In this document: positions 6,224 to 30,011 of the stretch, piece after piece
Layout of the letters: every line of letters starts with the position of its first letter
Position numbering within the stretch: position 1 is the stretch's first letter
NCBI RefSeq assembly: GCF_010729895.1
Contig: NZ_AP022612.1
Coordinates: 5,084,001-5,148,000, forward strand
From: Mycolicibacterium confluentis
Lineage (GTDB): Bacteria; Actinomycetota; Actinomycetes; Mycobacteriales; Mycobacteriaceae
Direction of reading: 5' to 3'
Length of the DNA: 64,000 nt
Notes under the pieces: model-generated
Told to the model about the DNA's origin: nothing
Databases searched by the model: none
What the model saw: the letters and a program-made list of their open reading frames with translations, nothing else
Position numbers and translations under genes: made by a program

Positions 6224-6227
6224 GAGC

Positions 6228-15406: not shown

Positions 15407-15461
15407 CCCGAACCCGCTGCGGCCTTGCCCAATGCCGCCACGGTGCGGTGGCCAGGGATCT

Positions 15462-17039
15462 CTATGAGCTGCGCTGCGCGGCGACCATCTTGCGCACCAG
15501 GGCCTTCTGAATCTTGGAGCTCGGCGTCCTGGGGAAGTCATCGACCTGGTGAATCTCTTCCGGCCACTTCTGTTTGGCCAGGCCACTGTTCGCGAAGTGT
15601 GCGCGCAGCTCGTCCATCGAGGGCAGGGGCGCGTGGGGTTTCATCCGCAGCACCGCGGCGGTGCGCTCACCGAAGCGGTCGTCGGGGGCAGCCACCGCCA
15701 CCGCCTCAGCGACACCGGCCATCGTCGACAGCACCTCCTCCACCTCCATGGCGCTGATGTTCTCCCCACCGCGGATGATGATGTCGGATTTACGGTCGAC
15801 GATCGACAGGTATCCGTCGTTGTCCAGAACCCCGATGTCCCCGGTGTGATACCAGCCTTCGTCGTCAAAGGCGTTGCGGGTCAGTTCTTCGTCGAGGTAG
15901 CCCAGACACAGGTCCGGTCCGCGGCTGAGGATCTCCCCGTCGGCGGTCAACCGAATCTCCACCCCCGGGAGTGCCTGTCCGTCGGTGTACATCCGTTTGT
16001 CGGCCGGCGCGGTGTAGTGCGTGCTGCTGATGGAGGGGTGCTCGGTGCTGCCGTACGAACGCCATACCGTGACCCCCTGCTCGTGGAGTCGCCGTGCGAC
16101 CGCGGCCGGCACCGACGATCCGCCCATGCCGGCGTACCGCATGTTGTCCAGGTCTGCGGGGGTGAAGTCGGGGTGGTCGAGAAGACTGATGACGAAGTAT
16201 GGTGCGCCACCGCCGAATGTCAGTCCGTCACTGCGCATCAGCGCCAAAGTCTGCGCGGGATTCCAGGCGTCGGTGAGGTAGACCGGCGTGCCGTTCAGCA
16301 CGGGGATCAGGAAAGCGTTCAACATGCCGATGAAATGACCGACGGGCGCCGCGGTGAGCTGCCGTTCCAGCCCCGGCGGATACGCGGCACTGAGCTGCCG
16401 AGTCTCGTACGCCAACGTCTGGTGGCTGTGGACCACCCCCTTGGCGTCACGGGTGGTTCCCGAGGTGAAGGCGATCACCGCCGGTGTTGCCGGCGCAACC
16501 TCGAGGTTGTCGGTGAGTGGCTCGTCGTCCAGCAGCTCATCGAAGTCGCGTCCCACCACCCCGACGATCGGGATGTCGGAGTACAGCTCCGGCTGATATC
16601 GCGTCCGGCCGAACTCCTCGAACGTGATGAACACCTTGGGTTTGGCGGTCGCCGCGATGTGCTGGATCTCCTTGGCACCGTAGAAATGCACGACGGGCAC
16701 CACCACCGCGCCCAGGAATGCCGACGCCCAGAACGTGGCTGCGGCCTCCATCCAGTTCGGCAGCTGGAATGCGACGACATCGCCTGGACCGACCCCCCTG
16801 CGGCGCAGGCCCGCGGCGAGCCTGCGGGCGATCCGCTCGACGTCGTCGAAGGTTCCCGACCACGGGCGGGTCGCGGAGTGCACCCGGAACTCCGCCTGGG
16901 GTGTACGGCGCAGACCCTGTGTCAGCAGGTCCGCGATCGTCTCCTCGGTCCACCATCCGTTCGCGGTGTACGACTGCACCAATTCGGCTGGAATGGCGCG
17001 GTTTACCAACGTCGGGCCGGTTCCGACCGAGCGATTCAC
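15462..17039 (-). CDS. Acyl-CoA synthetase / AMP-dependent ligase
   Basis: An adenylate-forming enzyme of about 525 residues that activates a carboxylic acid with ATP and, in most relatives, CoA. Visible core motifs are FTSGTTRDAKGVVHSH (P-loop), YGSTEHPS, YHTGDIG, DRKSDIIIRGGENIS and the C-terminal catalytic lysine in RTPSSKIQK. The GTG at 17039 has AAGGA six bases upstream; another GTG five codons earlier has no such site. It lacks the insertion typical of fatty acyl-AMP ligases, so a CoA ligase is favoured. An inverted repeat at 17081-17100 lies in its promoter region and links it to the regulon extending to 31.5 kb. Confidence 0.9.
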   Translation of the reverse strand: MNRSVGTGPTLVNRAIPAELVQSYTANGWWTEETIADLLTQGLRRTPQAEFRVHSATRPWSGTFDDVERIARRLAAGLRRRGVGPGDVVAFQLPNWMEAAATFWASAFLGAVVVPVVHFYGAKEIQHIAATAKPKVFITFEEFGRTRYQPELYSDIPIVGVVGRDFDELLDDEPLTDNLEVAPATPAVIAFTSGTTRDAKGVVHSHQTLAYETRQLSAAYPPGLERQLTAAPVGHFIGMLNAFLIPVLNGTPVYLTDAWNPAQTLALMRSDGLTFGGGAPYFVISLLDHPDFTPADLDNMRYAGMGGSSVPAAVARRLHEQGVTVWRSYGSTEHPSISSTHYTAPADKRMYTDGQALPGVEIRLTADGEILSRGPDLCLGYLDEELTRNAFDDEGWYHTGDIGVLDNDGYLSIVDRKSDIIIRGGENISAMEVEEVLSTMAGVAEAVAVAAPDDRFGERTAAVLRMKPHAPLPSMDELRAHFANSGLAKQKWPEEIHQVDDFPRTPSSKIQKALVRKMVAAQRSS

Positions 17040-17080
17040 CTGAGTCCTTGACACTCAGGCAGTGTGGCACGCATCATACG

Positions 17081-17100
17081 AATCAATCAAGCGATTGATT
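17081..17100. promoter_or_regulatory. Regulon operator site 1
   Basis: AATCAATCAAGCGATTGATT: perfect 8-base inverted arms around a 4-base centre. It lies between the AMP-ligase (minus, start 17039) and the NTF2-like gene (plus, start 17209) and could control both. It matches four other sites at 24947, 26441, 26526 and 26641. Confidence 0.8.
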
Positions 17101-17208
17101 GGAAGCAGCACTACGAAAAGGGCTGGGGTGCCGAGCAGTTTCTCGGCCAGGACGCTGTCCGGCCCCAGTTCGGCACCACCAACCGCTAACCGGCACAGAG
17201 GATTGAGA

Positions 17209-17640
17209 ATGGATATCCAGGAGATCAGCGACCGGCTCGAGATCGAAGCGCTGCTCGCGAAGTACGCCAGGGCGGTCGACACCCGCGACTGGGACTTGTG
17301 GCGGTCGTTGTTCACCGATGATGCGGTGGTGGATTATTCGTCGGCCGGCGCCATAGCCGGAACCCGCGACGAGGTCGCCGACTGGCTGGCGCAGGCGCTG
17401 AGCGCGATGCAGATGATGCAGCACTTCATCTCCAACATCGAGGTGGAGATCGCCGGTGACACCGCGCAGGTGCGCGCCATGTTCTACAACCCGATGCAGC
17501 TGCCGGGGATGGACGAGCTGAGCTACTGCGGTGGCTACTACCACCACACCATGGTCCGGACACCGGCGGGCTGGCGTAGTCGAGCGTTGCGTGAAGAGAA
17601 CGCCTGGTTCGCGAATCCGCTGCTTCCGGCCCAGGGCTAG
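17209..17640 (+). CDS. SnoaL/NTF2-like protein
   Basis: A 143-residue protein of the SnoaL-like (NTF2 fold) family, starting at MDIQEISDRLEIEALL. The family pattern of an N-terminal helix, then YARAVDTRDWDLWRSLFTDDAVVDY and a curved sheet with paired His (QHFISN, YYHHTMV), is clear. Members act as hydratases, isomerases or dehydratases on polycyclic or lipid substrates, or as non-catalytic binding proteins, so the reaction here is not known. It is followed after eight bases by an epimerase/dehydrogenase gene and controlled by a promoter next to operator site 1. Confidence 0.85.
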   Translation: MDIQEISDRLEIEALLAKYARAVDTRDWDLWRSLFTDDAVVDYSSAGAIAGTRDEVADWLAQALSAMQMMQHFISNIEVEIAGDTAQVRAMFYNPMQLPGMDELSYCGGYYHHTMVRTPAGWRSRALREENAWFANPLLPAQG

Positions 17641-17648
17641 ACCGCTCA

Positions 17649-18638
17649 ATGAGCAAGAAATTGGTCATCGGGGGCAGCGGCTTCATCGGCTCGAACGTCA
17701 TCCGCAAGCTGGTCGAACGTGGCGAAGATGTCCGGGTGATGCTGCGAGAGACCAGCTCCACCAAAGGAATCGATGATCTCGATGTCGAGCGCTGCTACGG
17801 CGACGTCTTCGACGACGAGGCGCTGCGCAGCGCGATGGCTGGATGCGATGTCGTGTTCTACTGCGTGGTGGACGCTCGCGCGTGGCTGCGCGACCCTTCC
17901 CCGTTGATCCGGACGAATGTCGAAGGTCTGCGCCATGTCCTCGACGCCGCGGTCGATGCCGATCTGAGGCGCTTCGTCTTCATGTCCACCATCGCCACGC
18001 TGGCGGTCAGCGAGGACGGCACGCCCGTCACCGAGGACGACCCGTGCAATTGGTACGACGACGGCGGTGCCTACACCCAGTGCCGAGTCGACGCCGAGAA
18101 CCTGGTGTTGTCTTACGCGAACGACATGGGACTGCCCGCCGTCGCACTGTGCATATCCAACACCTACGGGCCGCGGGACTGGCAACCGACACCGCACGGC
18201 GGCTTGATCGCCGCCATCTCCGCGGGGAAGGCCCCGTTCTACTTCCGCGGCATCGGCCAGGAGGTCGTGGGCATCGAGGATGCCGCGGAAGCGATGATCC
18301 TGGCCTCGGACAAGGGCCGGGTCGGGGAACGGTACATCATCTCGGATCGGTTCGTGACCACCCGCGAACTGCACACGCTGGCCGCCAAGGCCGGTGGGGT
18401 GCGGGCACCGTGGATCGGGATCCCCCGGCGGTTGCTGCTGGCCCTGGCGTCGGCCACCCAGTGGGTAGGCGACACGACCGGACGCGAGATCAAATTCGTC
18501 CGACGCGCGTTCGACATGGTCGACAAGATGTCGCCGCTGGATCACAGCAAGGCCGAACGTGAACTCGGCTGGCGACCGACCCCGATCGAGGACTCGATCC
18601 GCAAGGCTGTCGCGTTCTACCGCGAGCACGGCATGTAG
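17649..18638 (+). CDS. NAD(P)-dependent epimerase/3beta-HSD-like extended SDR
   Basis: A 329-residue extended short-chain dehydrogenase with the N-terminal dinucleotide motif GGSGFIGS. The NTYGPRDW segment and C-terminal helices are typical of epimerases and 3beta-hydroxysteroid dehydrogenases. The catalytic YxxxK motif reads Tyr-Thr-Gln-Cys-Arg (codons at 18072-18086), so Arg replaces the usual Lys, which may alter or abolish normal oxidoreductase chemistry. It is co-transcribed with the SnoaL-like gene and converges on the TetR gene at 18645. The substrate is unknown. Confidence 0.85.
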   Translation: MSKKLVIGGSGFIGSNVIRKLVERGEDVRVMLRETSSTKGIDDLDVERCYGDVFDDEALRSAMAGCDVVFYCVVDARAWLRDPSPLIRTNVEGLRHVLDAAVDADLRRFVFMSTIATLAVSEDGTPVTEDDPCNWYDDGGAYTQCRVDAENLVLSYANDMGLPAVALCISNTYGPRDWQPTPHGGLIAAISAGKAPFYFRGIGQEVVGIEDAAEAMILASDKGRVGERYIISDRFVTTRELHTLAAKAGGVRAPWIGIPRRLLLALASATQWVGDTTGREIKFVRRAFDMVDKMSPLDHSKAERELGWRPTPIEDSIRKAVAFYREHGM

Positions 18639-18644
18639 TGCTGC

Positions 18645-19259
18645 CTACTTGAACAGCGTTCCGCTGACCAGGCGTTTCAGCGCCTTGACCGTGGAGTGGT
18701 ACTCATCGGGATCCGCAGTTGCCGCGTAGTCGGTCATCCCTTGCAGGACGAGGTAGATCGAGTTCGCCACGCTGTCGATGTCGGTCGACCGTGGTAGCGC
18801 GCCTTCTCGACGGGCCTGTCTGATGATGTCGAGAGTCACCTCCCGCAGCGACGAGAACAGGGTGTCGCGGCTCTCGGCCAGGTGCCTCGCGGTGCCGACC
18901 CGGATAGCACGGTCGAATGCGGCGATCAGCGGATACTCCCGCATCAACTGATCACACTCATCGAAGACCGCGACCAATCGTTCCCGGAAATCCTCGCTGC
19001 GCTGCGCGGACGCGGCCACGCGAGGAATCGTCATCTCCGCCCACTCGTCCAGCGTCGCTTTGATCAGCTCGGTCTTGTTCGGAAAGTAGTGGTAGAGGCT
19101 TCCGCTGGTCATATCCGCTTTTCGGGCGATCTCCCGTATCGTCGCCCGTTCATACCCCACTTCGGCAACGCAGCGCATAGTGGCGTCGATGATCCGCCGC
19201 CGGGTCTCCTCGCCGTTGGCGCCGACTGGCCGGCCCAGCAGCGATGGGTTGGTGGACAC
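18645..19259 (-). CDS. TetR-family regulator, likely regulator of the catabolic regulon
   Basis: A 204-residue repressor; the GTG at 19259 has a strong G-rich ribosome-binding site. The helix-turn-helix spans about 18-64 and includes IREIARKADMTSGSLYHYF. The C-terminal domain resembles the TetR_C type common in regulators of acyl-CoA metabolism (KstR2-like). It is the last gene of the operon that begins with the TPP enzyme at 24906, 25 bases after the flavoprotein. That suggests autoregulation through the operator at 24947-24966. I infer that it binds all five AATCAATC-type inverted repeats. Confidence 0.88.
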   Translation of the reverse strand: MSTNPSLLGRPVGANGEETRRRIIDATMRCVAEVGYERATIREIARKADMTSGSLYHYFPNKTELIKATLDEWAEMTIPRVAASAQRSEDFRERLVAVFDECDQLMREYPLIAAFDRAIRVGTARHLAESRDTLFSSLREVTLDIIRQARREGALPRSTDIDSVANSIYLVLQGMTDYAATADPDEYHSTVKALKRLVSGTLFK

Positions 19260-19284
19260 GGATCCCCCTAAGTCGGCGAACGTA

Positions 19285-20913
19285 TTACCTCGAGTTTCTC
19301 ATGCCGCCCACTGGCCGCGGTGCCTCCGCGGCGGCCGCGGCCGCATGCTCGCCGGCCCGCCTGCCGGAGAACACGCAGTCGGCGAGCGCCAGACCGCTGA
19401 CGTAGCTGTTGGAGCAGACGCCCACCGCGGTCCGTCCCGCGGCGTACAGGCCGGGTATGGGATGGCCCTCATGATCGATCACCAGGCCGGTGTCACCGTC
19501 CACCTTCAACCCGCCGAGAGTCAGTCCCGGCACCGGGTAGGTCAGTGAGGGACGAACGGAGATGTCGATGCCGTAGAACGGGGGGCGGACGATCGGTGCG
19601 CACAATTCGGGTGCCTTGTGGGCGGAATCATCACCCCCCGATGCGATGGCCGCGTTGTAGGCATCGACGGTGGCGACCAGCCCCGAGCTGGAGATTCCCA
19701 GTTTGCGGGCCAGCTCGGACAGGGTCGCCGCCTTGCGGTGACCGAAGCTGAACACGGCCGCGATCTGCATACGCAGGATCGACTCGGCCTGCTCCCTCCC
19801 CTGAGCACGCGCCCGCTTCCACGTGTCGGCGTCGACGATTGCATAACCCTTGCCGCCGAACTGACGGACCATGATGTCGCAATGCGTGGCGCCGTAGAGA
19901 TCCTCGTTGGCGATCCGGTCGCCATTGACCCCGACCGTGACCCCCTCGATCAGGGCCGACGGGGGGGTCAGGAGCCGCCAGGCACTGACCCGATCCAGCT
20001 GATCCGTGGCGCCGCCGGCACTCACACCGAGGCGGATGCCCGCACCGTCGTCGGCACGGGTACCCAGCGGCCGGATCTGGGTGAATGCCGGCGCATGACG
20101 GCGCAGCATGTCGTGGTTGAACGCGAATCCGCCCGCCGCCAACACCACGTTCGGCGCGGTGAACGTGCGCTCCTGGGCGCGCCGCTGCCACATCCGGTCG
20201 GCAAGGCCCGTGACGGGATGACCGATCGGCGGCATCCAGTTCGTCAGCTTCGCGCCCACCGCCGTTGTCCGACCATGCAGGAACTGTGCTGATCGACTGC
20301 CACCGATCCAGGTGCGGCAGCGGATTCCGCTCACCCGGCCGTCGACGATCACCAGATCATCCACGACGGTGCGGGGCAGAAACGTGACGCCAAGTTTCAG
20401 GGCGGCATCGCGCATCCGGCGCCACAGGTCCCGGCCGGACTTCGTCCCCGTCGCGATCTGGCGGTGCCCCCGGGGCGCGGGCCTGGCGTGCAACCGGTAC
20501 GGATAAGCCTTCTCGTTTCCGGAGAAGTACAGATAGTGCTTAGTCGGGTAGGAGGTCTTGTAAGTACACAACGACCCCTCGAACTGCGCTCCGTGCTTCT
20601 CCAACCAGGCCAGCTGTTCGACGCTGCCATCGCAGAACCGGCGCAGGGTGGCGTCGCCGACGACACCCTGCACTTCCTGCCGCAGGTAGTTGAACATGTT
20701 CTCGGGGTCGTCGTCGTAGCCGGCCGCCTTCTGGTACGGCGTCCCGCCGCCGGCGTAGACCACGCCACCAGACACCGCTGACGATCCGCCGCCCAGGGCA
20801 CGGTCCACCGCGAGCACCCGAGCCCCGTTCTCGGCCGCCGCGATGGCCGCGCACACTCCGGCAAGGCCGAAGCCCACCACAATCAGGTCGAAATCATCAG
20901 TGACCCTCGACAT
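19285..20913 (-). CDS. FAD-dependent oxidoreductase (FAD_binding_2; ketosteroid dehydrogenase/fumarate reductase-like)
   Basis: A 542-residue flavoprotein. The start at 20913 has GGAGG six bases upstream. The N-terminal FAD motif VVGFGLAGVCAAIAAAENG is followed by the loop GGGSSAVSGGVV, and the C-terminal FAD motif is PGLYAAGRTAVG. This is the layout of 3-ketosteroid dehydrogenases and fumarate/urocanate reductases, which add or remove hydrogens next to a carbonyl. It overlaps the ferredoxin gene by 17 bases, but the fold is not that of a ferredoxin-NAD reductase. It is more likely a dehydrogenase in the pathway than the electron supply of the Rieske enzyme. Confidence 0.88.
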   Translation of the reverse strand: MSRVTDDFDLIVVGFGLAGVCAAIAAAENGARVLAVDRALGGGSSAVSGGVVYAGGGTPYQKAAGYDDDPENMFNYLRQEVQGVVGDATLRRFCDGSVEQLAWLEKHGAQFEGSLCTYKTSYPTKHYLYFSGNEKAYPYRLHARPAPRGHRQIATGTKSGRDLWRRMRDAALKLGVTFLPRTVVDDLVIVDGRVSGIRCRTWIGGSRSAQFLHGRTTAVGAKLTNWMPPIGHPVTGLADRMWQRRAQERTFTAPNVVLAAGGFAFNHDMLRRHAPAFTQIRPLGTRADDGAGIRLGVSAGGATDQLDRVSAWRLLTPPSALIEGVTVGVNGDRIANEDLYGATHCDIMVRQFGGKGYAIVDADTWKRARAQGREQAESILRMQIAAVFSFGHRKAATLSELARKLGISSSGLVATVDAYNAAIASGGDDSAHKAPELCAPIVRPPFYGIDISVRPSLTYPVPGLTLGGLKVDGDTGLVIDHEGHPIPGLYAAGRTAVGVCSNSYVSGLALADCVFSGRRAGEHAAAAAAEAPRPVGGMRNSR

Positions 20914-21247
20914 TCGCCGCCTCCTGGTCGTTGTTGGTGGACTTCTTGACACCGGGCTTGCGCACCGTGATGGGTCCAGAGGCCTTGACCTGGCAGGCCA
21001 GTCTGATCCGGCGCGGGTTGGCGCGCCGGACCCTGCGGTCGAGGTCCGCGAGCAATGCGACCTCGGCGTCGGTGCGTTCGGAGAGCAGGTGCAGGCCGTC
21101 GAGTATCTCGCATCGACAGGCAGTGCAGGTGCCGCGGGCGAAACACAGTGTCGGCCAGTCATATCCGCAACGCCAGGCAGCCTGCATCAGCGTCTCGCCG
21201 GGTTGCACGTCAATGTCGACGCCCGCGGGCTCCACCCGCATCGTCAC
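20897..21247 (-). CDS. [2Fe-2S] plant-type ferredoxin
   Basis: A ferredoxin of about 116 residues. With the GTG at 21247 as start, the cluster ligands are Cys35, Cys41, Cys44 and Cys85 (LCFARGTCTAC and LACQV), the usual C-x5-C-x2-C plus distal Cys. Two further Cys (27, 46) are extra. An ATG two codons downstream is an alternative start. It follows the Rieske oxygenase by 10 bases and probably passes electrons to it. The C-terminal 25 residues are a charged tail that overlaps the next gene. Confidence 0.88.
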   Translation of the reverse strand: MTMRVEPAGVDIDVQPGETLMQAAWRCGYDWPTLCFARGTCTACRCEILDGLHLLSERTDAEVALLADLDRRVRRANPRRIRLACQVKASGPITVRKPGVKKSTNNDQEAANVEGH

Positions 21248-21257
21248 CGAAGGCAGC

Positions 21258-22664
21258 TCAGTACGTCGCAATGTAGCGGTCGATCTCGCTGTGCAACGAG
21301 AAGATCATCGGCTCATATTTTGGCGACAGGGTCGAGTGCGTGATGGCGCCCGAGCGGTAGCCCGCCTGCTGGCGGTAGATGTTGCCCATGTCCTGCTGCA
21401 ACACGAACGGCCAGTCCTCCGGTTCCAGCGGACCTTCTCGACGAGGAGCCGCGTTGTCCATATCGCAGCGCCGCGGGATCTGCATCGCCAGGGCCTCGAA
21501 GATCGCCGAGTCCGGGTCGTGGCCGTTCGGACGGAACCGGTAGAACAGTAGATTTCCGGTCAGCCCGAGAAAGACGAAGTTGGGGAACACGAATCCGTAT
21601 GTCGAGATGTTGGGATCCAACGGAGGCAGCGGAATGTCGGCCTCTTCGGCGTACTTGTAGAGCTCCTCGAAGAACTTGAGCAGCACCTGGTCGTCGGGCA
21701 GGTCACGGATCCGGTCGGCGATGTACTCGTCGCGCGCGGTGGCGAATCCGTCGGTGCCCTCGAAGAGCACCTGATTCTGGTCAATGAAGAACCGGCCCGG
21801 TTCCATCCCGGCGACCAGCGTCGGAGGCAGGACGTAATCTTCCGGATGTTCCGGATCGAACGGTGTGGTGGTGTCGACATGACCCATGCCGTGGTGGAAG
21901 TAGGGGACCCCGTCAGCGTTGTAGTCGTCGTCGGCGGCCCCCATCGCGAGTTCTGGGTGGGCCTGCATGACGTGGTAGGCCTCGAGGAACGCCTCCGTGG
22001 CCACCTTCCAGTTGCCAGGCACTATCGAGTGCTTCCACCAGCGCACACGCATCCGGTCCATCGCCATCGGTCCCAGGTGCTTGTCGTAGGTACCGAAGAA
22101 CTCCTCGAGGGTCGGCGCCTCATCGTCGAAGTTGATCCAGACGAAGCCGTATTTGACGGCCGAGCGCACCTCGGTCAGCAGCATCTTGTCCGGGTCGATC
22201 GAGCCCGGCACGAAACCCTTACGGCAGTAGATGTACGACTGGCTGCCGTCGGTGTTGAACCGCCACCCGTGGAAGGGGCAGACGATCTGATTGCCGCCGA
22301 ATGTCCCGGCATCGGCAGGTTCGACCAGTTGAGTGGCCCGGTGCGGACAGACATTGTTGAGCACCTTGATGCTGCGGTCGGGCTGACGCACCGCAATGAC
22401 CGTCTTGTCGACAATCGTGTACTCGATGAAATCCCCGGGTTCGGGGATGTCCTCCTCGCGGCATGCCCACTGCCAGGTGTGCAGCCACATCTTCTCGTAC
22501 TCCAGATCGGCGAACTGCCGGTCGTAGTAGCGCTCAACGGGTAGATGCACACCGTCGGCGACCCGGAACGGCACCGCGGTGGTGTCGACGTCGTGCCTGG
22601 GCACGTACGGGGCCGCCGCTTCGGCGGTCGTCACTGCCCCGGGTGGAGTGAGTTGCGCTGTCAT
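21258..22664 (-). CDS. Rieske non-heme iron oxygenase, alpha subunit
   Basis: A 468-residue ring-hydroxylating-type oxygenase. The Rieske [2Fe-2S] ligands are Cys106, His108, Cys129 and His132 (CPHRA and CPFHGW). The mononuclear iron site is around EAYHVMQAH, with His231 and His236. It is longer than most relatives, with an insertion after the iron site. No beta subunit is adjacent, so it is probably a homo-oligomeric monooxygenase, demethylase or dioxygenase fed by the ferredoxin encoded 10 bases downstream. A dedicated reductase is not visible in the operon. Confidence 0.92.
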   Translation of the reverse strand: MTAQLTPPGAVTTAEAAAPYVPRHDVDTTAVPFRVADGVHLPVERYYDRQFADLEYEKMWLHTWQWACREEDIPEPGDFIEYTIVDKTVIAVRQPDRSIKVLNNVCPHRATQLVEPADAGTFGGNQIVCPFHGWRFNTDGSQSYIYCRKGFVPGSIDPDKMLLTEVRSAVKYGFVWINFDDEAPTLEEFFGTYDKHLGPMAMDRMRVRWWKHSIVPGNWKVATEAFLEAYHVMQAHPELAMGAADDDYNADGVPYFHHGMGHVDTTTPFDPEHPEDYVLPPTLVAGMEPGRFFIDQNQVLFEGTDGFATARDEYIADRIRDLPDDQVLLKFFEELYKYAEEADIPLPPLDPNISTYGFVFPNFVFLGLTGNLLFYRFRPNGHDPDSAIFEALAMQIPRRCDMDNAAPRREGPLEPEDWPFVLQQDMGNIYRQQAGYRSGAITHSTLSPKYEPMIFSLHSEIDRYIATY

Positions 22665-22674
22665 GCCACGCCTT

Positions 22675-22905
22675 TCAGTTGATGGTGGCGACGACGGTGC
22701 CGACCGGGTAGTCCTCGTCGACCTCGCCGATGATGGAGATCTGACCGTCAGCCGGGCTTTCGACCTCGGTCTCGGTCTTGTCAGTGGCCAGCACGTAGAT
22801 GGCCTGGCCGGCCGCAACGGTGTCGCCGTCCGCGCAGAGCCATTCAGTGATCTGGCCCTGTTCGACGGCGACACCGAGCTTTGGGATTCGCACTTCATGC
22901 GCCAT
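22675..22905 (-). CDS. Stand-alone lipoyl-domain protein
   Basis: A 76-residue protein consisting of only one biotinyl/lipoyl domain. The modifiable lysine is Lys43 in ATDKTETEV; the DKxET context marks lipoylation rather than biotin (MKM). It has no peripheral-subunit-binding or acyltransferase domain, unlike E2 subunits of 2-oxoacid dehydrogenases. It sits between the E1 beta gene (19 bases upstream) and the Rieske oxygenase gene (10 bases downstream). It probably accepts an acyl or hydroxyalkyl group from the TPP enzyme; the next step is not encoded here. Confidence 0.88.
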   Translation of the reverse strand: MAHEVRIPKLGVAVEQGQITEWLCADGDTVAAGQAIYVLATDKTETEVESPADGQISIIGEVDEDYPVGTVVATIN

Positions 22906-22924
22906 GGGTGTGTTCGCCTTTCCG

Positions 22925-23920
22925 TTAACCCAGCACTGCCCGAATGGCCGGTTCGATCCGGCTGACGGGCAGGAAGTTCTGTTCGAGTGACGATGCGTAG
23001 GGAACCGGGGTGTTGGCCCCGCCGACCCGGCCGACCGGTGCCGCCAACTCACCGAAGAGTTCGGAGTGGATCTGCGCGCTCAGTTCGGCGCCGAACCCGC
23101 CACGGGTGACCGCCTCGTGCACCACGACCGCCCGCCGCGTCTTCGCCACGGAGCTGAAGATGGTGTCAGTGTCAAGCGGCTGCAGCGAACGCAGATCGAT
23201 CACCTCGGCCGAGATACCCTCGCCGGCCAGCTTTTCCGCCTCGGCGAGGCAGTCCAGCACCTGGCGGCCATAGGTGATCAGGGTCAGGTCAGTGCCCTCC
23301 CGCGCGATGCGGGCCTTACCCAGCGGTACCCGGTAGTCACCTTCGGGCACCTCGTCACGGACCGCGAAGTACAGGCTGCTCATCTCGACGATCACCACGG
23401 GGTCGTCGTCGAAGATTGCCGACAGCAGCAGGCCCTTGGCATCGGCGGCGGTGGACGGTATCGCCACCTTGAGTCCCGGGGTATGGATCAGCGTGGCTTC
23501 CAGCATCTCGGAATGCTGCGCACCGAATCCCGCTCCGGCACCTGTGGTGGTGCGGACCGTGAGCGGGATCGGCGTGGCGCCGCCGGACATGTAGCGAAGT
23601 TTGGCCGCATGGTTGAAGAGTTGGTCTGCAGCAACGGAGATGAAGTTCATCAGCATGATCTCGGCCACCGGGCGCATGCCGGCCATCGCAGCACCGATCG
23701 CCGCGCCCATGATCGCCTGTTCGCTGATGGGTGTGCAGCGCACCCGTTCTGAGCCGTACTTGGCTTCCAGGCCCTTGTGCACACCGAAGCCGCCACCCTT
23801 GGGGTCCTGGATGTCCTCGCCGAGTTCGAAGACCTCCGGGTCAAGTCCCAGCGCGACATCGAGGCCGTCCCGGATGGCGTCGAGCATCATCAGGGGGCGG
23901 GACGCGGTTGCGGTGCTCAT
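22925..23920 (-). CDS. TPP-dependent 2-oxoacid/acetoin dehydrogenase-type E1, beta subunit
   Basis: A 331-residue E1 beta chain, starting at an ATG that overlaps the alpha stop by ATGA. Family landmarks are LGEDIQDPKGGGFGV, TPISEQAIMGAAIGAAMAG and the C-terminal VDLRSLQPLDTDTI and VVHEAVTRGGFGAE segments. With the alpha chain it forms the heterotetramer that decarboxylates or cleaves a 2-oxo compound and passes the fragment to lipoamide. The presence of a Rieske oxygenase and a lone lipoyl domain instead of E2 and E3 makes the physiological substrate unclear. Confidence 0.92.
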   Translation of the reverse strand: MSTATASRPLMMLDAIRDGLDVALGLDPEVFELGEDIQDPKGGGFGVHKGLEAKYGSERVRCTPISEQAIMGAAIGAAMAGMRPVAEIMLMNFISVAADQLFNHAAKLRYMSGGATPIPLTVRTTTGAGAGFGAQHSEMLEATLIHTPGLKVAIPSTAADAKGLLLSAIFDDDPVVIVEMSSLYFAVRDEVPEGDYRVPLGKARIAREGTDLTLITYGRQVLDCLAEAEKLAGEGISAEVIDLRSLQPLDTDTIFSSVAKTRRAVVVHEAVTRGGFGAELSAQIHSELFGELAAPVGRVGGANTPVPYASSLEQNFLPVSRIEPAIRAVLG

Positions 23921-24906
23921 CGAACGGTCTCCTCGGCGTAGACGTCGGTGGTGAGTTCGGACGGATCGGGCAGCGGCTGCTCGTATGCCCATTCGGCGGC
24001 ATCGTTGACCTCTTCCTGGGCGGCCCGGTCTATCTCGTCCAGTTCTTCTGCAGCGACGCCGAATTCATCGATCAGGCGCTGACGGAACAGCGGGATCGGG
24101 TCGGCTGCATTCGCGTCGGCAAGTTCTTCGGCGGGAATGTATTCGCTCTGGTCGCCGAAGTAGTGGCCGCAGAATCGGTAGGTGACGGCCTCCAACAGGG
24201 TGGGTCCGCCGCCGCCTCTGGCGCGTTCGATGGCCTGACCCGCGGCGTCGTAGAGCTCGACGGGGTCGTTGCCGTTTACGGTGGCCCCCGCCATGGAGTA
24301 CGCCACCGCACGATCGGCGATGTTGGCGACCGTGGTGCCACCGGCCAGCGGGGTGTACTCGGCCCACTTGTTGTTCTGGCAGACGAAGATCACCGGCAGC
24401 TTCCACAGCGATGCCAGGTTGAGGCTTTCGTGAAACGCTCCGATGTTGCTGGCGCCGTCGCCGAAGTTGACCACGGCCACCTGGTCGGTCCCCCGCATCT
24501 GGGCGGCCAGGGCCAGGCCGTTGGCGATCGGCAGGCCTGATCCGACCACACCGGTGGTGACCATCAGCCCGTGCTTGGGCGAGGTGACATGCATGGGGCC
24601 ACCCTTGCCACGGCAGGTTCCGGCGGACCGGCCCAGATACTCGGCCCAAAGGTCGCGCAGCGGCACGCCTTTGGCGATCTGGTCATGCAGACCCCGATAG
24701 GTGGTCACGACGTAATCGGCGGGTCGCAGGTGAGCGGCGACCGATGCGGCCGCGAACTCCTGCCCGCGTGGCGAGTAGTACATTCCGGCGAACTTGCCGC
24801 TCATCATCTGCGCTCGATAGGTCTCGTCGAACGATTTGATGCGCGCCGCCGTGCGGTACAACCCGACCAGGGTCGCCTGGTCCAGTCCTGTTTCGATGGT
24901 CGTCAT
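23917..24906 (-). CDS. TPP-dependent 2-oxoacid/acetoin dehydrogenase-type E1, alpha subunit
   Basis: A 329-residue E1 alpha chain. The thiamine-diphosphate motif starts at GDG (149-151) and ends at NN (178-179). The conserved TTYRGLHDQIAKG and CRGKGGPMH segments are present. It is the first gene of a seven-gene operon that ends with TetR. The promoter region contains operator site 2 at 24947-24966, 40 bases upstream of the start. Relatives act on pyruvate, branched 2-oxoacids or acetoin; the residues seen do not decide between them. Confidence 0.92.
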   Translation of the reverse strand: MTTIETGLDQATLVGLYRTAARIKSFDETYRAQMMSGKFAGMYYSPRGQEFAAASVAAHLRPADYVVTTYRGLHDQIAKGVPLRDLWAEYLGRSAGTCRGKGGPMHVTSPKHGLMVTTGVVGSGLPIANGLALAAQMRGTDQVAVVNFGDGASNIGAFHESLNLASLWKLPVIFVCQNNKWAEYTPLAGGTTVANIADRAVAYSMAGATVNGNDPVELYDAAGQAIERARGGGGPTLLEAVTYRFCGHYFGDQSEYIPAEELADANAADPIPLFRQRLIDEFGVAAEELDEIDRAAQEEVNDAAEWAYEQPLPDPSELTTDVYAEETVR

Positions 24907-24946
24907 CGGAGATCTGCTCCCCTCGGAAGGGTGGTTGAAGTGTGCG

Positions 24947-24966
24947 AATTAATCAATTGATTGATT
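24947..24966. promoter_or_regulatory. Regulon operator site 2
   Basis: AATTAATCAATTGATTGATT lies 41-60 bases upstream of the E1 alpha start, in the only promoter-sized gap before the seven-gene operon. It differs from the consensus arm at one position (T for C at position 4). Confidence 0.78.
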
Positions 24967-25024
24967 GGATCTACGTTATGAGGTGGGTCACGTTCCGTCA
25001 AGCACTGATCCGCGGGATCCAGCC

Positions 25025-25549
25025 TCAGTTCAGTGGCCGGATCGGGTCGCTGCCGTCCCAACCGTCCGCAGCGTCCCGGACGAACTTGGCAAGGCCCTGG
25101 GTGACGTCGTTGTATTCCATGAGTTCCACAACGGTGGCCACGCCGGCGGGTGGTTCGACGTACGCGTACCGCACTCCCCCCTCCTCTGCGCTGGACCAGA
25201 CCACGGGCCAGCCGGCATCCCGCACTGCGCGTAATGTCGCGTCGAAATCCTCTGGCCAATAGGCCAACTGATGAAACCCCGGCCCATTGCCATCGAGGAA
25301 CTCCGTGTAGATGCTCGGCGTGTCTCCGTGCTGCTCGATCAGTTCGAGCTGCAGCTCACCGCTGTTGGCCAGTGCGATCGAGATGGTCACTTCACACCGT
25401 TCGCCACGATGATCAGCCTGCTGCACGATGCGGCGCAGCACGAACCATGGACCCACCCCGAGTTCCACCCAGCTGGCCAGTGCGGCATCGAGGTCGCCGA
25501 CCACGTAACCGATCTGTCGGACCGGCCCGGGCAGTGGCGAGGAAGACAT
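25025..25549 (-). CDS. VOC/glyoxalase-family protein
   Basis: A 174-residue vicinal-oxygen-chelate fold protein; the ATG at 25549 has GGAG six bases upstream. Two beta-alpha-beta-beta-beta modules are visible. Metal-ligand positions read Gln (VRQIGYVV, usually His), Glu (LQLELIEQ), His (GFHQLAY) and Glu (VVELMEY). One ligand position is therefore substituted, as also seen in some epimerase-like members. It lies 24 bases after the SDR gene and is presumably co-transcribed from operator site 3. An epimerase, isomerase or ring-opening role in the same pathway is inference. Confidence 0.85.
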   Translation of the reverse strand: MSSSPLPGPVRQIGYVVGDLDAALASWVELGVGPWFVLRRIVQQADHRGERCEVTISIALANSGELQLELIEQHGDTPSIYTEFLDGNGPGFHQLAYWPEDFDATLRAVRDAGWPVVWSSAEEGGVRYAYVEPPAGVATVVELMEYNDVTQGLAKFVRDAADGWDGSDPIRPLN

Positions 25550-25573
25550 CTGAACTCCAATCATTCAGGCGGA

Positions 25574-26395
25574 TCAGGCGAGCTGGGTGCCGCCGTCAAC
25601 GGACAGCACCTGCCCGGTGACGAATGCAGCCGCGTCAGAGGCGAGATAGACCACCGCAGCGCCGACCTCGGCCGGTAAGGCGAACTGGCGTTCCAAGACG
25701 GTGCGCCGGGCAATCGAGGTCAGTTCCTCCGCCCGGTCGACCATCAGCCGTGCGAACACTCCGTCGGGGTGCCACCGACTGCCCGTGGAGATGGCGTCCG
25801 CCCCGTCGGGAAAGGTCGAGTACGGGGCCACCGCGTTTACCGTCACCCCGTGCGTACCAACTTCTTTGGCCAGCACCCTGGTGAAGGCATGGACGGCACC
25901 CTTCATCGCGGAATACACCGCGAGCAGCGGATCACCGACGATCCCCGATGTCGAGCCGATGTTGACGATCCGGCCCCAGCCACGAGCGATCATCCCGGGC
26001 AGGAACGCGTGGGTGCAGTTGAGGACGCTCACGAAGGTGAGGTCGATATCGTCCCGCCATGCCGCCGGGTCGGATTCCGCGAAGGCATCCATCCCGACAT
26101 TGCCGCCCACACCGTTGACCAGAACATCGACGGCGCCGAATCGTTCACCCACTGCCACTGCCATCGCCGCAGCGTCGGCACGGTCGGTCACGTCGCAGGC
26201 CTGCCAGTGCACATCTCGCGCGCCTCGCTCAAGCAGGTGGGCACACACCTTCGCACCCTGGTTCGGATCCCGCCCGACGACAACGATGTTCGCACCCTCG
26301 GCCGCGAACTCCGTCGCGATACCACGTCCGATGTTGGCATTGGCGCCGGTAACGACCACGGTGCGCCCGGCGAGTCCGGTTTCCAAATTCCTCAC
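25574..26395 (-). CDS. Short-chain dehydrogenase/reductase
   Basis: A 273-residue classical SDR. The GTG at 26395 has GAAGG seven bases upstream. The cofactor motif is TGANANIGRG, the NAG-equivalent is NGVGG (variant), the catalytic residues are Ser in IGSTSG and YSAMK, and the C-terminus ends SVDGGTQLA. A longer loop (STGSRWHPDG) shapes the substrate pocket. It is followed by the VOC gene and preceded by operator sites 3 and 4. Confidence 0.9.
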   Translation of the reverse strand: MRNLETGLAGRTVVVTGANANIGRGIATEFAAEGANIVVVGRDPNQGAKVCAHLLERGARDVHWQACDVTDRADAAAMAVAVGERFGAVDVLVNGVGGNVGMDAFAESDPAAWRDDIDLTFVSVLNCTHAFLPGMIARGWGRIVNIGSTSGIVGDPLLAVYSAMKGAVHAFTRVLAKEVGTHGVTVNAVAPYSTFPDGADAISTGSRWHPDGVFARLMVDRAEELTSIARRTVLERQFALPAEVGAAVVYLASDAAAFVTGQVLSVDGGTQLA

Positions 26396-26440
26396 CGCAC
26401 CTTCGGTTTGACTGCTGAACTGATGCCCGAGACTTCACTG

Positions 26441-26460
26441 AATCAATCAGTTGCTTGATT
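26441..26460. promoter_or_regulatory. Regulon operator site 3
   Basis: AATCAATCAGTTGCTTGATT lies 46-65 bases upstream of the SDR start at 26395. The right arm has one mismatch to the consensus. Confidence 0.75.
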
Positions 26461-26525
26461 CCCGTGAACGCGAAGTTCGCGGACACCTAGCGCACGCGTC
26501 GACACGCCTGCGGCAGCCGCCGTGG

Positions 26526-26545
26526 AATCAATCATTCGATCGATT
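26526..26545. promoter_or_regulatory. Regulon operator site 4
   Basis: AATCAATCATTCGATCGATT lies midway in the 302-base gap between divergent genes at 26395 and 26698. One mismatch in the right arm. Its centre is 85 bases from site 3 and 115 from site 5, so it could serve either promoter. Confidence 0.72.
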
Positions 26546-26640
26546 CCTTCAAGATATGTCTGACGTCACATCAGGTCAAGAACGTGACCGACACCGCAGA
26601 ATTTCCTTGACGACGACGGGTCAAGATCCTAGCCTCAATA

Positions 26641-26660
26641 AATCAATCAGTTGATTAGTT
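26641..26660. promoter_or_regulatory. Regulon operator site 5
   Basis: AATCAATCAGTTGATTAGTT lies 38-57 bases upstream of the sulfotransferase start at 26698. The left arm is perfect; the right arm has two mismatches. The rest of the 302-base gap shows no gene. Confidence 0.75.
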
Positions 26661-26697: not shown

Positions 26698-27972
26698 ATG
26701 CCCGACATCATCACCGTCGACGACCTGCGCGACCCCCAGCTGACCGACCTGCAGCGCCAGGTGCTCGACGCCACCCGGCACCAAGAGGTGGACTTCGACA
26801 TCGACAAGGTGCTCGACGAGGCAGTGGCGACCTCCGGCATCACCGACTTCGACGGCGAGGGCCTCGACGGCGAATTTCGCGAGCGCTTGGGCGTCCACTT
26901 CGCCGCCATCGACGCCGACGACCTCAACCCGCTGTCCCGGATGACATTGCGCGAGCGCTCGGTTCGCCTGCTGCGCAACCGCGTGCTGTTCACCGACCTG
27001 ATGCGGCGCTACCCCGAGATCGAGGACATCGAGATCGAGAAGCCGTTCATCGTCATCGGGATGCCGCGTTCTGGCACGACTCACTTCGTCAACCTGATCG
27101 CGGCCGACAGCCGGCGCCGGGCGCTCCCCTACTGGGAGAGCCGCGAACCGTTCCCCATCCGCGGTGAGGCCGCCGGCCCCAACGGTATCGACCCCCGGTA
27201 CCAGCGCACCGCTGACGAGTACGGCTTCGTCAAGGAGTTCATGCCGTTCGCGCTCGCCGTGCACGACCGCTACCCGGAGGCCATCGAGGAGGAGATCGAG
27301 CTCGATCTCGACTTCTCCAACTACATCGTGGAGTGGTACGCCCAGGTGCCGCAGTGGCGGGACTATTACCTGGGACTCGACCAGGTGAAGCACTACGGCT
27401 ACCTGAAGAACGTGCTGAAGGCGTTGACGTTCTTGCGCGGGCCGCAGACCTGGGTGCTCAAGGCTCCCCAGCACTGTGAACAGATCCCCGCACTGCTGGA
27501 GGTCTTCCCCGACGCCACCTTCGCCTTCACCCATCGCGATCCCGTCGCCGTCATCCAGTCCACCGTCACGCTGATGGCGTACGGCGACCGAATCCGACGC
27601 GAGAAGGTCGACACCGACTGGGTGGTCAACTACTGGGTGGACCGGGTGGAACGGCTCCTGGGCGCGTGTGTGCGCGACCGGGACCTGGTACCCGCTGAAC
27701 GGAGTATCGACATCTCGTTCCACCACCTCAACGGCAACGAGATCCCGTTCCTCGAACAGCTCTATCAGCGTGGCGGCGTGGACCTGACCCCCGAGACCCG
27801 AAACGCGTTCAACAGCTACCTGTCAGGCAATCCGCGCGGTAAGCACGGCCGCATCGCCTACGACTTGGAGCGGCACTTCGACCGTAGCCCCGACGAGATC
27901 CGCAGTCGTTTCGACTTCTACTTCGACAAGTTCGATGTACGGCCGGAGAATTCCGGCGCGGACGCCCGGTGA
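26698..27972 (+). CDS. Sulfotransferase-family protein (PAPS-dependent)
   Basis: A 424-residue protein of the mycobacterial Sulfotransfer_3 type. The 5'-phosphosulfate loop is IGMPRSGTTHFVNLIA near residue 120, and the 3'-phosphate-binding Arg/Ser segment is FTHRDPVAVIQST. Such enzymes move sulfate from PAPS to lipid or steroid hydroxyls, although many members have unproven activity. The start has a GAGAGAG ribosome-binding site and operator site 5 upstream. It overlaps the next gene by GTGA. Coupling with a sulfatase-fold protein is unusual. Confidence 0.85.
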   Translation: MPDIITVDDLRDPQLTDLQRQVLDATRHQEVDFDIDKVLDEAVATSGITDFDGEGLDGEFRERLGVHFAAIDADDLNPLSRMTLRERSVRLLRNRVLFTDLMRRYPEIEDIEIEKPFIVIGMPRSGTTHFVNLIAADSRRRALPYWESREPFPIRGEAAGPNGIDPRYQRTADEYGFVKEFMPFALAVHDRYPEAIEEEIELDLDFSNYIVEWYAQVPQWRDYYLGLDQVKHYGYLKNVLKALTFLRGPQTWVLKAPQHCEQIPALLEVFPDATFAFTHRDPVAVIQSTVTLMAYGDRIRREKVDTDWVVNYWVDRVERLLGACVRDRDLVPAERSIDISFHHLNGNEIPFLEQLYQRGGVDLTPETRNAFNSYLSGNPRGKHGRIAYDLERHFDRSPDEIRSRFDFYFDKFDVRPENSGADAR

Positions 27973-29243
27973 CCACGTTGTCCGGCAGGAGCATTGACGA
28001 CTTCGAGCCGATCCATCGCAGTAGGCCCGGCGCCGACGAACTCGCCGGGGCGTCGGCCCGGGAGGCACAGCAGGTCGCGCCGGGGGTCTGGATGTCACCC
28101 GGACTCACCAACTCCTACCTGTTGACCACCGACGACGGCCGGATCGTGGTCAACACCGGGATGGGCTTCGAATCCCCGGTGCACAAGGCCAACTTCGACG
28201 CCGTCGACGACGGCACGGTGCGCTACATCATCTACACCCAGGGGCATGCCGACCACGTTGGCGGTACGGACGTGTTCCGTGAACCCGGCACTCACATCGT
28301 CGCGCAGGCGAACTGGGAGATGTGGCGTGACGACACCGACCGCCTGCTGGCGCACCGTGCGCGAAACACGATGTTCGCCTTCGTCGACAAGATCAGTGCC
28401 ACCGTCGCCGGCATCCAGGAGCGATTCGGGCAGGTGCTGCCCGCGCAGGCCGCCCCGGACCCCGACATCATCGTCGAGGACACCTTGTCCCTGGAGCTGG
28501 GTGGGCGTCGCATCGAGCTGATCGCCACCCCCGGCGGCGAGACCACCGACTCTCTCGTCGTGTGGCTGCCCGATGAGCGGATCTGCCTCTGCGGCAACCT
28601 TTTCGGTCCGGTGTTTGGGCACATCCCCAACCTCGTCACCATGCGTGGCGATCGCTATCGCGATGCGCTGGTCGCGGTCGCATCCTACGAGCGTGTCCGC
28701 CAGCTGCAGCCCGAGGTGCTCATCACCGGCCACTTCGAACCAATCCAAGGGGCCGCCCGGATCAACGCCGAGTTGATCCGGCTGCGCGATGCGGTCCAAT
28801 TCCTGCACGACGAGACCGTGACCGCCATGAACGCCGGTGACGACGTCCGCGATGCGATGGCAGCGATCACGCTGCCGCCCGAGCTGGAGGTGGGACAGGG
28901 CTACGGCAAGGTCAGCTGGAACGTCAGGGCGATCTGGGAGAACTACAACGGCTGGTTCCATCGCCGGTCCACTACCGAGTTGTATCCCGTCGGGCCCGAG
29001 TCCATCAGCTCCGATCTAGTCGAGCTTGCCGGCTCCGACGCACTCGTCGAGCGCGCGGGTCGACTGCTGGCGGCCGGTGAGCCGCTGCGCGCGATTCACC
29101 TCGGCGAAATCGTATTCAACGCCGACCCCGACAACCAGCGGGCACGGTCGGTGCTCAGGGCAGCCCACGAAGTGCTGCTGGGGCAAAGCACGAACTTCTG
29201 GGAGTCGGCCTGGCTTCGCAAACAGATTGGAGAATTGGCATGA
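27969..29243 (+). CDS. Metallo-beta-lactamase-fold, alkyl-sulfatase-like protein with altered metal site
   Basis: A 424-residue protein with an MBL domain (about 30-240) and a C-terminal alkyl-sulfatase dimerisation domain, recognised from YGKVSWNVRAIWENYNGWFHRR. The metal motif reads Gln-Gly-His-Ala-Asp-His, so the first His of HxHxDH is Gln. The Glu expected before Asn in the following metal loop appears to be Gly (LCGNLFG). The late His (ITGHFEP) is kept. It may therefore bind one metal or act on something other than alkyl sulfates. It overlaps both neighbours by four bases (GTGA, ATGA). Confidence 0.85.
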   Translation: MTTLSGRSIDDFEPIHRSRPGADELAGASAREAQQVAPGVWMSPGLTNSYLLTTDDGRIVVNTGMGFESPVHKANFDAVDDGTVRYIIYTQGHADHVGGTDVFREPGTHIVAQANWEMWRDDTDRLLAHRARNTMFAFVDKISATVAGIQERFGQVLPAQAAPDPDIIVEDTLSLELGGRRIELIATPGGETTDSLVVWLPDERICLCGNLFGPVFGHIPNLVTMRGDRYRDALVAVASYERVRQLQPEVLITGHFEPIQGAARINAELIRLRDAVQFLHDETVTAMNAGDDVRDAMAAITLPPELEVGQGYGKVSWNVRAIWENYNGWFHRRSTTELYPVGPESISSDLVELAGSDALVERAGRLLAAGEPLRAIHLGEIVFNADPDNQRARSVLRAAHEVLLGQSTNFWESAWLRKQIGELA

Positions 29244-29986
29244 CCGCACGCGCAACCTACGACTTCACGGGGACGACAGCCCTGGTCACCGGCGGCACCA
29301 GTGGCATAGGCCATTCCATCGCGACCAAGCTGCGCGATGCGGGTGCCACCGTGACCACCACGGGGCGCAAGCCCCAGGCCGCAGACTACGGAGTCGACCT
29401 CGACGGCATCACCTACCACCAACTCGAGCTCACTGACCGGGCCGGAATCCAAGAACTGGCAGCCGGATTCAGCACCCTCGACATCCTTGTGAACAACGCT
29501 GGCGCGATCTTCGCAGGCGGCCTAGACGAGTCGACGCCCGACGGCTTCCGGGCCACCGTGGACCTCAACCTGTTCGGGCCGTTCGAACTCACCACGGCCC
29601 TCTACGCCGCGCTGGCCAAGTCTGCGGCACCCGGCGGCGCCAGCGTCGTCGGACTCTCCTCGCTGTCCACCGTGCGGGCCGTCCCGATGGTGCCCGCCTA
29701 CGGTGCCGCGAAGTCTGGAGTTCTCGCAATGACGCGGAACTTCGCGATGAAGTGGGGCCCCGACAAGATCCGGGTCAACGCCGTCACCGCCGGCTTCATC
29801 GACACCCCGATGACCTCGCCGGAACTGGTCCCGGACTACATCGCCGAACAGTGCGCGCGGACCCCCCTGGGGCGCCTCGGCACACCCGACGAGGTCGCCG
29901 AGGCTGTCATCTTCCTGTGCACCGAGAACAGTGCCTTCATCACCGGATCCGTCGTCACCATCGACGGCGGTTACTGCGTCAGCTGA
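29240..29986 (+). CDS. Short-chain dehydrogenase/reductase
   Basis: A 248-residue classical SDR with TGGTSGIG, NNAG, catalytic Ser in LSSLS, YGAAK and a TIDGGYCVS end. The start overlaps the upstream stop as ATGA. It is the third gene of the sulfotransferase operon and is followed after 25 bases by the Rieske oxygenase. Probably oxidises or reduces a hydroxyl or ketone on the pathway substrate. Confidence 0.92.
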   Translation: MTARATYDFTGTTALVTGGTSGIGHSIATKLRDAGATVTTTGRKPQAADYGVDLDGITYHQLELTDRAGIQELAAGFSTLDILVNNAGAIFAGGLDESTPDGFRATVDLNLFGPFELTTALYAALAKSAAPGGASVVGLSSLSTVRAVPMVPAYGAAKSGVLAMTRNFAMKWGPDKIRVNAVTAGFIDTPMTSPELVPDYIAEQCARTPLGRLGTPDEVAEAVIFLCTENSAFITGSVVTIDGGYCVS

Positions 29987-30011
29987 CCCAGCCCCGAGAC
30001 AAGGAGATGCC

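Follow-up and report, generated by a model that had tools for sequence, protein, structure and literature searches.

The DNA considered here is a stretch of 64,000 nucleotides from Mycolicibacterium confluentis (the window; positions 5084001–5148000 of a genome that consists of a single contig of 5,876,557 bases), in which five copies of a 20-bp inverted repeat stand before the genes of a putative oxidative catabolic regulon that also encodes a TetR-family regulator. The set holds 17 genes with tetR included, in agreement with the "about 16" of the original prediction, and is divided into five units (1 + 2 + 7 + 2 + 5 genes) as judged from spacing and strand. The E1 operon (24906–18645, minus strand) carries the genes for E1 alpha, E1 beta, a lipoyl protein, the Rieske oxygenase RHO1, a ferredoxin, an FAD enzyme, and the TetR protein, which overlap or are separated by at most 40 bp. 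The other units are the AMP-ligase (15462–17054, minus strand), SnoaL with an epimerase (17209–18638, plus strand), the short-chain dehydrogenase SDR1 with a VOC protein (26395–25025, minus strand), and the sulfotransferase unit (26698–31528, plus strand), which comprises a sulfotransferase, a metallo-beta-lactamase-fold protein, a second short-chain dehydrogenase (SDR2), a second Rieske oxygenase (RHO2), and a protein of 114 amino acids (aa).

The repeat occurs at five places (Table 1), each with at most two mismatches to AATCAATCANNNGATTGATT, and the predicted coordinates and mismatch counts are borne out by a scan of the window. At up to three mismatches, AATCAATCANNNGATTGATT gives 12 strand-wise matches, all of which are the five places or copies of them shifted by 4 bp, against a chance expectation of 0.01 matches (100 dinucleotide shuffles). 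Across the 5.88-Mb genome, the same threshold returns the five places and one other match, a non-palindromic half-match with three mismatches at genome position 711044, and the reversed-pattern control gives 0 matches. Furthermore, the relaxed palindrome AAYYRATC-N4-GATYRRTT, scanned over the genome with at most one mismatch, recovers the five places together with a single additional, GC-rich site at 4572433. Since each genome scan yields the five places plus one further match, the set is essentially exclusive to this locus, and the random scatter across the genome that would have spoken against the prediction is absent with both patterns. The sites had also been said to lie only upstream of five units; they do lie only before genes, but the arrangement is refined in that three intergenic regions serve the five units. 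The operators at 26441, 26526, and 26641 share one such region, between SDR1/VOC on the minus strand and the sulfotransferase on the plus strand.

Four of the five operators start 3–6 bp downstream of a promoter-like element. On the E1 side (minus strand), TTGACG at 25001–24996 is followed by 17 bp, TAACGT at 24978–24973, and then 6 bp before operator 2. On the sulfotransferase side, TTGACG at 26607, a spacer of 17 bp, and TAGCCT at 26630 precede operator 5 by 5 bp, and the SDR1 side (minus strand) has TTGACC-17-TATCTT with 5 bp before operator 4. On the SnoaL side (plus strand), TTGACA-18-CATCAT stands 3 bp before operator 1. The AMP-ligase side (minus strand) has a TATGAT −10-like element at 17078–17073, and operator 1 lies upstream of it. 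When the three intergenic regions are aligned across six species, the operators rank with the best-conserved blocks, much of the flanking sequence having diverged; conservation also extends to the TTGACG/CATA elements and the beginning (5′ end) of the E1 alpha gene. The conserved operator on the SDR side is the one at 26526, not the one at 26441, as the five relatives have just two sites in the SDR1–sulfotransferase region, none of them matching 26441. Site 26441 is best read from this comparison as an extra, presumably recent operator. Next to operator 1, the two relatives looked at (M. diernhoferi and M. pyrenivorans) carry a further SnoaL/NTF2-like gene, placed between the operator and SnoaL. 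Of this gene, the window retains just about the last 25 codons at about 17109–17189, most of the gene appearing to have been deleted here.

The TetR gene at the end of the E1 operon had been named as the natural regulator, and comparative evidence supports this, in that the operator is co-conserved with the clade of this protein. The protein scores 64 bits against PF00440 (cut-off 24), so the N-terminal TetR helix-turn-helix is present. Scanning genomes with an alignment of TetR proteins led to 502 confirmed loci, of which the best 80 were kept and underlie the counts of operators in single, paired, and contig-end loci below: 39 with two divergent TetR genes, 27 with one complete gene, and 14 at contig ends. 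At up to three mismatches, 53/80 loci contain the operator, compared with 0/80 loci read backwards. An operator also lies near the TetR relative in ten of 13 loci of other genera (Nocardia, Actinomadura, Frankia, Parafrankia, Actinocorallia, and Rhodococcus), where relatives at 50–60% identity keep it in very different gene sets. Among 297 genomes of the genus, a site with at most one mismatch is found in 18/19 genomes with the best-scoring TetR and in 4/278 others (Fisher 4.6e-24); the cut-off for this split was chosen with the tables already in view, tallying was by eye, and the genomes are related.

The cluster and its sites are also present in M. diernhoferi, M. peregrinum, M. pyrenivorans, M. 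vaccae, and [M.] burgundiense (genomes G224 and G021 for the first two, G304 for the last). In [M.] burgundiense the cluster is split, the sites at AMP-ligase/TetR lying 16–18 kb from those at E1 and SDR1; AMP-ligase, E1, and SDR1 are nevertheless preceded by operators, and the sulfotransferase by a four-mismatch form. Identities to the window proteins there are 55% for TetR, 67–72% for AMP-ligase, SnoaL, and epimerase, and 88–92% for the E1 and Rieske proteins. Replacement of the regulator in this species was considered and dropped as weak, given that AMP-ligase, SnoaL, and epimerase also reach only 67–72%. The 18645–19259 TetR is found in six of the seven cluster loci (approximately 20 kb each) of these five relatives at 55–95% identity, and the seventh is the other half of the split cluster (L082). 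Near the TetR genes of the operator-bearing loci L083, L095, and L098 lie oxygenases, P450s, and SDR-like or luciferase-like flavin enzymes, as judged by similarity to window proteins and by inspection of the sequence. The TetR clade seems, from its gene neighborhoods, to be specialised on oxidative catabolism.

With the sites, their near-exclusivity, their place at promoter-like elements, their conservation, and their co-conservation with the TetR clade all observed, the 18645–19259 TetR is very probably a homodimeric local repressor of the 17-gene oxidative catabolic set, acting through the five operators. Several points weigh against this assignment. The genomes are related, so the operator and TetR counts are not independent. 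Ten of the 27 complete single-TetR loci lack a site with at most one mismatch and four lack one with at most two, among them loci of Rhodococcus coprophilus (L118) and Nocardia sp. alder85J (L119). One of the 19 best TetR genomes (G147) has just a three-mismatch site near the TetR gene. Two genomes, G315 and G015, have a site with at most one mismatch and TetRs of only ≤39% identity over any long stretch, the 39% protein being a fragment at a contig start. Some genomes that have no match to the 18645 TetR at 1e-20 contain two-mismatch sites of the form AATCAACCA-N3-GATTGATC; a near-identical site of this form recurs at 1501–1520 in L061, L062, L068, L070, and L071. The promoter-like elements are consensus matches, and a mechanical promoter scan over 18.5 kb finds five, compared with 2.3 expected in shuffles, and lists two of the four elements cited above, which makes such elements weak evidence on their own. 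Finally, the catabolic role of the regulon is suggested only by protein families.

The rival explanations differ in how they fare with these data. Another regulator, either the second TetR at 14873–15406 or the product of a distant gene, could bind the palindromes with the 18645 TetR as a passenger. The 14873–15406 gene adjoins AMP-ligase and is of the TetR family (PF00440 E=8e-11), and a few genomes that lack an orthologue of the 18645 TetR do contain similar sites. Against this, no orthologue of the 14873–15406 TetR is found in the seven cluster loci of the five relatives (best E 4e-4, 29% over 86 aa), six of which hold the 18645 TetR, and the operator accompanies the 18645 clade in other genera and among other sets of genes. 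The second TetR was rejected as the regulator on its non-conservation in these loci, and a passenger role of the 18645 TetR is quite improbable. An origin of the repeats as a mobile or structural repeat family, or as chance palindromes of no regulatory role, would suit short, AT-rich palindromes in a window of 66% GC. This origin was rejected on the shuffle expectation, the near-absence of the repeats from the rest of the genome, their location only before genes, and the six-species alignment, in which they keep their place as much of the flanks diverges; its probability is negligible. The sites might instead serve the TetR as an activator or dual regulator, as some mycobacterial TetR-like proteins are described to activate, GplR1 among them (PMC12455991), and as the place of operator 1 upstream of the TATGAT element of the AMP-ligase unit would permit. 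At four promoter-like elements, however, the operator directly follows the −10 element, a geometry of steric repression, and this alternative is unlikely, although less so than the other two.

Under repression by the 18645–19259 TetR, its homodimer would, when inducer is absent, bind AATCAATC-N4-GATTGATT, which follows closely on the −10 elements of the target promoters, and block RNA polymerase. A substrate or intermediate of the pathway, probably a CoA ester or another hydrophobic metabolite, would bind the C-terminal domain of TetR and cause its release, switching on the whole 17-gene set. Being encoded at the end of the E1 operon, TetR itself would be switched on with the set. We infer from the arrangement described above that the protein binds these sites, that it represses instead of activating, that an inducer releases it, and that a single pathway is served.

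Table 1. Operators and genes of the candidate regulon, in window coordinates.
Feature	Coordinates	Strand	Remarks
Operator 1	17081..17100		Perfect palindrome halves AATCAATC/GATTGATT; between AMP-ligase (−) and SnoaL/epimerase (+); kept in 5 other species
Operator 2	24947..24966		Upstream of the E1 alpha...TetR operon (−); aligned in 6 species
Operator 3	26441..26460		SDR1 leader; among 6 species compared, in the window only
Operator 4	26526..26545		At the SDR1/VOC promoter (−)
Operator 5	26641..26660		At the sulfotransferase-operon promoter
AMP-binding acyl-CoA ligase-like	15462..17054	−	PF00501 E=2.8e-54
SnoaL-like protein	17209..17640	+	PF13577 E=3.5e-33
NAD-dependent epimerase/3beta-hydroxysteroid dehydrogenase-like	17649..18638	+	PF01370, PF01073; HpnA and SdmB models below cut-off
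TetR-family regulator, 204 aa, proposed repressor	18645..19259	−	Last gene of E1 operon; PF00440 E=1e-17
FAD-dependent dehydrogenase	19285..20904	−	Passes NF005511, NF005513 (both named only "FAD-binding protein")
[2Fe-2S] ferredoxin	20897..21241	−	PF00111 E=2.1e-10
Rieske oxygenase alpha subunit RHO1	21258..22634	−	PF00355, PF00848 on longer frame 21258–22898
Stand-alone lipoyl domain, 72 aa, without acyltransferase domain	22675..22893	−	PF00364 E=4.7e-16
E1 beta-like	22925..23920	−	PF02779/PF02780 on longer frame 22925–23992
E1 alpha-like (thiamine diphosphate dehydrogenase)	23917..24906	−	PF00676 E=1.2e-73
VOC/glyoxalase-like	25025..25564	−	PF13669 E=1.9e-23
Short-chain dehydrogenase SDR1	25574..26395	−	PF00106/PF13561
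Sulfotransferase family 3	26698..27972	+	PF13469 E=3.2e-31
Metallo-beta-lactamase fold with alkyl-sulfatase dimerisation domain	27969..29243	+	PF00753, PF14863
Short-chain dehydrogenase SDR2	29240..29986	+	PF13561
Second Rieske oxygenase alpha subunit RHO2	30012..31187	+	
Conserved 114-aa protein	31184..31528	+	No Pfam match; 84 homologues

Relatives of the window TetR fall into classes that differ in the number of genes, the recognition helix, and the operator. Half-sites were typed as A (AATCAATC) or B (ATAYRATC), and sites were scored over 16 positions. At up to one mismatch, 37/39 pair loci have an asymmetric AB site, with neither AA nor BB in any; the single-TetR loci have AA in 17/27 and an asymmetric site in none; the contig-end loci have AA in two and AB in seven of 14; and the reversed controls give 0 in all classes. 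At this threshold, a total of 63 AB sites was counted over the pair loci, which lie among L121–L175 (for example L145 at 5813 and 9256 and L122 at 9245). At up to two mismatches, AA is present in 22 and AB in two of the 27 single-TetR loci, and in the pair loci AB reaches 39/39, with AA in five and BB in one. The B consensus was written after the pair loci had been seen, which makes the AA/AB/BB count partly circular; anchoring on an exact AATCAATC half is less biased. By this means, the pair loci yield 53 partner halves, of which 52 end in ATC, 37 begin with ATA, and none equals AATCAATC, and 25 of 42 partner halves in the 41 non-pair loci (contig-end loci included) begin with AAT. Furthermore, the exact site ATAYRATC-N4-GATTGATT occurs in 49/248 genomes (reversed control 0), namely in 46/63 with at least two TetR homologues, 2/24 with one, and 1/161 with none, where homologues are counted irrespective of adjacency and many genomes overlap the 80-locus set.

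The two proteins of a pair differ in the recognition helix as well, with one histidine and one asparagine member in 37 of the 39 pairs by pattern, or 38 with L132 read by eye. The histidine helix is mostly TSGSLYHYFPNK, the same as in the single form, and the asparagine helix is mostly TSASLYNYFPNK. One pair locus, L121 (9317, 10016, and 10639), has histidine in both TetR helices, yet an exact AB site alongside, so the code may involve more than this one residue. Many pair loci probably share one ancestral duplication, and the correlation is thus strong but reflects few independent events. A third helix type accompanies a different palindrome. In the four class loci L201–L204 and on a Streptomyces plasmid (L180), the loci closest in enzyme module, the AATCAATC motif is not found at up to four mismatches, and another palindrome, AAGTAACTGTTCATTTACTT or a close variant of it, stands before the oxygenase in 5/5 as read from the sequence (L201 5339–5358; L202 8996; L203 10182; L204 10927; L180 14917). 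The site follows a TTGACA/TTAAAGT-like promoter in the four genome loci (CTAAAGT in L204), and the related TetR of all five loci (33–34% identity) has TSAAIYRYFP, with arginine in the helix. The genomes of L201–L204 share one genus label and are therefore close to one lineage. Taken together, these patterns make it moderately likely that the window TetR is the symmetric single-gene form of a clade with an operator code, and that the divergent A/B pairs present in many mycobacteria form an obligate heterodimer on asymmetric A–B operators. As part of the same reading and at the same moderate likelihood, the histidine helix TSGSLYHYFP would recognise AATCAATC, the asparagine helix TSASLYNYFP would recognise ATAYRATC, and the arginine helix TSAAIYRYFP would recognise AAGTAAMT.

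The enzymes of the E1 operon form an unusual combination. Among the best 120 of 484 protein matches, RHO1 has no characterised close relative; the solved structures closest to it, all of low similarity, are those of carnitine monooxygenase and of biphenyl-type dioxygenases, and it matches six NCBIfam models, all below cut-off. It is also rare, occurring (window genome counted) in 4/297 genomes of the genus (E ≤ 1e-60), 1/397 of the order (E ≤ 1e-100), and 11/394 of the class (E ≤ 1e-70). M. intracellulare and M. pyrenivorans contain RHO1 relatives of 70% and 68% (P0025 and P0026), and the latter species seems to hold a second, diverged RHO1 besides its 91% copy. The Streptomyces plasmid has TetR, oxygenase, ferredoxin, FAD protein, E1 alpha, E1 beta, and lipoyl genes in a row (14962–20753). 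Of 16 further loci in ten class genomes, 13 contain all six enzyme genes in several gene orders (L201–L207, L209–L213, and L215), the FAD match being just 25–28% in nine of these; one of the remaining three is cut by a contig end, and two have the oxygenase with or without ferredoxin only. Conservation of content under shuffled order argues for one functional module, whose chemistry may comprise ring hydroxylation and dehydrogenation, followed by thiamine-dependent carbon–carbon cleavage onto lipoate. No E2 acyltransferase domain is found among the 17 annotated genes, and no search for it was made elsewhere in the genome. The nearest solved structure of the FAD enzyme is 3-ketosteroid delta4-5alpha-dehydrogenase, and together with the below-cut-off likeness of the epimerase to HpnA and SdmB this weakly hints at a steroid- or terpenoid-like substrate. 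The five units plausibly serve one pathway.

Beyond the sulfotransferase unit, the genome scans find no operator at the xylose-isomerase-like gene and SDR3 (31660–33329, minus strand) nor at the P450 beyond. Synteny nevertheless extends to the xylose-isomerase-like gene in three relatives and to SDR3 in two of them; in the third, the locus stops short of SDR3. On the other side, approximately 5 kb from the regulon, a gene run at 1607–10316 resembles an mce/YrbE lipid-import operon by eye.

Among known systems, the window TetR, as a candidate regulator of dispersed catabolic units, resembles KstR and KstR2, and KstR is among its nearest solved structures. KstR and KstR2 are mycobacterial TetR repressors of cholesterol catabolism that act through short palindromes, and the KstR regulon also has a flavin dehydrogenase and a Rieske oxygenase. 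The window TetR fails the KstR model NF033703 (61.4 bits, cut-off 280) and the ScbR-type autoregulator receptor model NF041196 (81 bits, cut-off 150). E1/lipoyl and metallo-beta-lactamase genes are not known to be part of the KstR or KstR2 regulons, and the window operator differs from their motifs. The operon shares E1 alpha, E1 beta, and a lipoyl domain with 2-oxoacid and acetoin dehydrogenase complexes; unlike in those, the lipoyl domain stands alone and travels with a Rieske oxygenase, a ferredoxin, and a flavoprotein.

Palindromic motifs for 30 regulators are reported in a survey of mycobacterial TetR proteins (PMC4482099). In M. tuberculosis Rv3160c–Rv3161c, a TetR represses a putative Rieske-type oxygenase gene (PMC7810876); by description, its operator consists of 12-bp and 8-bp inverted repeats before its own operon, and the available part of that source describes no multi-unit regulon. 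The riboflavin/lumichrome pathway also combines thiamine and Rieske enzymes (PMC12746152), and a link to it was rejected, as LumK and LumL are proteins of 20 and 23 kDa that do not correspond to E1 alpha/beta and the accessible portion of the report mentions no lipoyl protein. No description of the E1-lipoyl-Rieske module or of the 20-bp operator was found among the top matches listed from the open-access literature, subscription journals lying outside the search. Mce3R is described as a double TetR in one fused polypeptide, whose asymmetric operator is read by two non-identical helix-turn-helix units (PMC11667970). The window TetR, in contrast, is a single protein with one TetR_N stretch and a symmetric operator; the paired relatives share with Mce3R an asymmetric operator, but are two genes, and their reading by two units is predicted. 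The homologous TetR proteins AvaR1/AvaR2 and ScbR/ScbR2 are reported to heterodimerise on DNA, one target being exclusive to the ScbR/ScbR2 heterodimer (PMC5744401). Homo- and heterodimers of AvaR1/AvaR2 bind the same probe in that account, whereas the operators of the pair loci are split into two half-site types. Apart from these AvaR/ScbR and Mce3R precedents, the matches listed from the open-access literature included no split TetR pair with asymmetric operators.

The locus thus provides a complete, testable candidate regulon for an oxidative pathway, with a protein, five operators, and 17 candidate targets. A TetR-controlled catabolic regulon is a known kind of system, and the pathway core, a Rieske oxygenase/flavoprotein/thiamine-E1/stand-alone lipoyl module, is unusual. 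In addition, the regulator clade offers a natural series that links recognition-helix residues to half-site sequence, and it points to a mutable operator code and to probable heterodimers. The asymmetric operators of the paired genes predict a heterodimeric TetR, which bears on how TetR proteins evolve specificity; if this holds true, the A/B pair would be the two-gene counterpart of the fused Mce3R.

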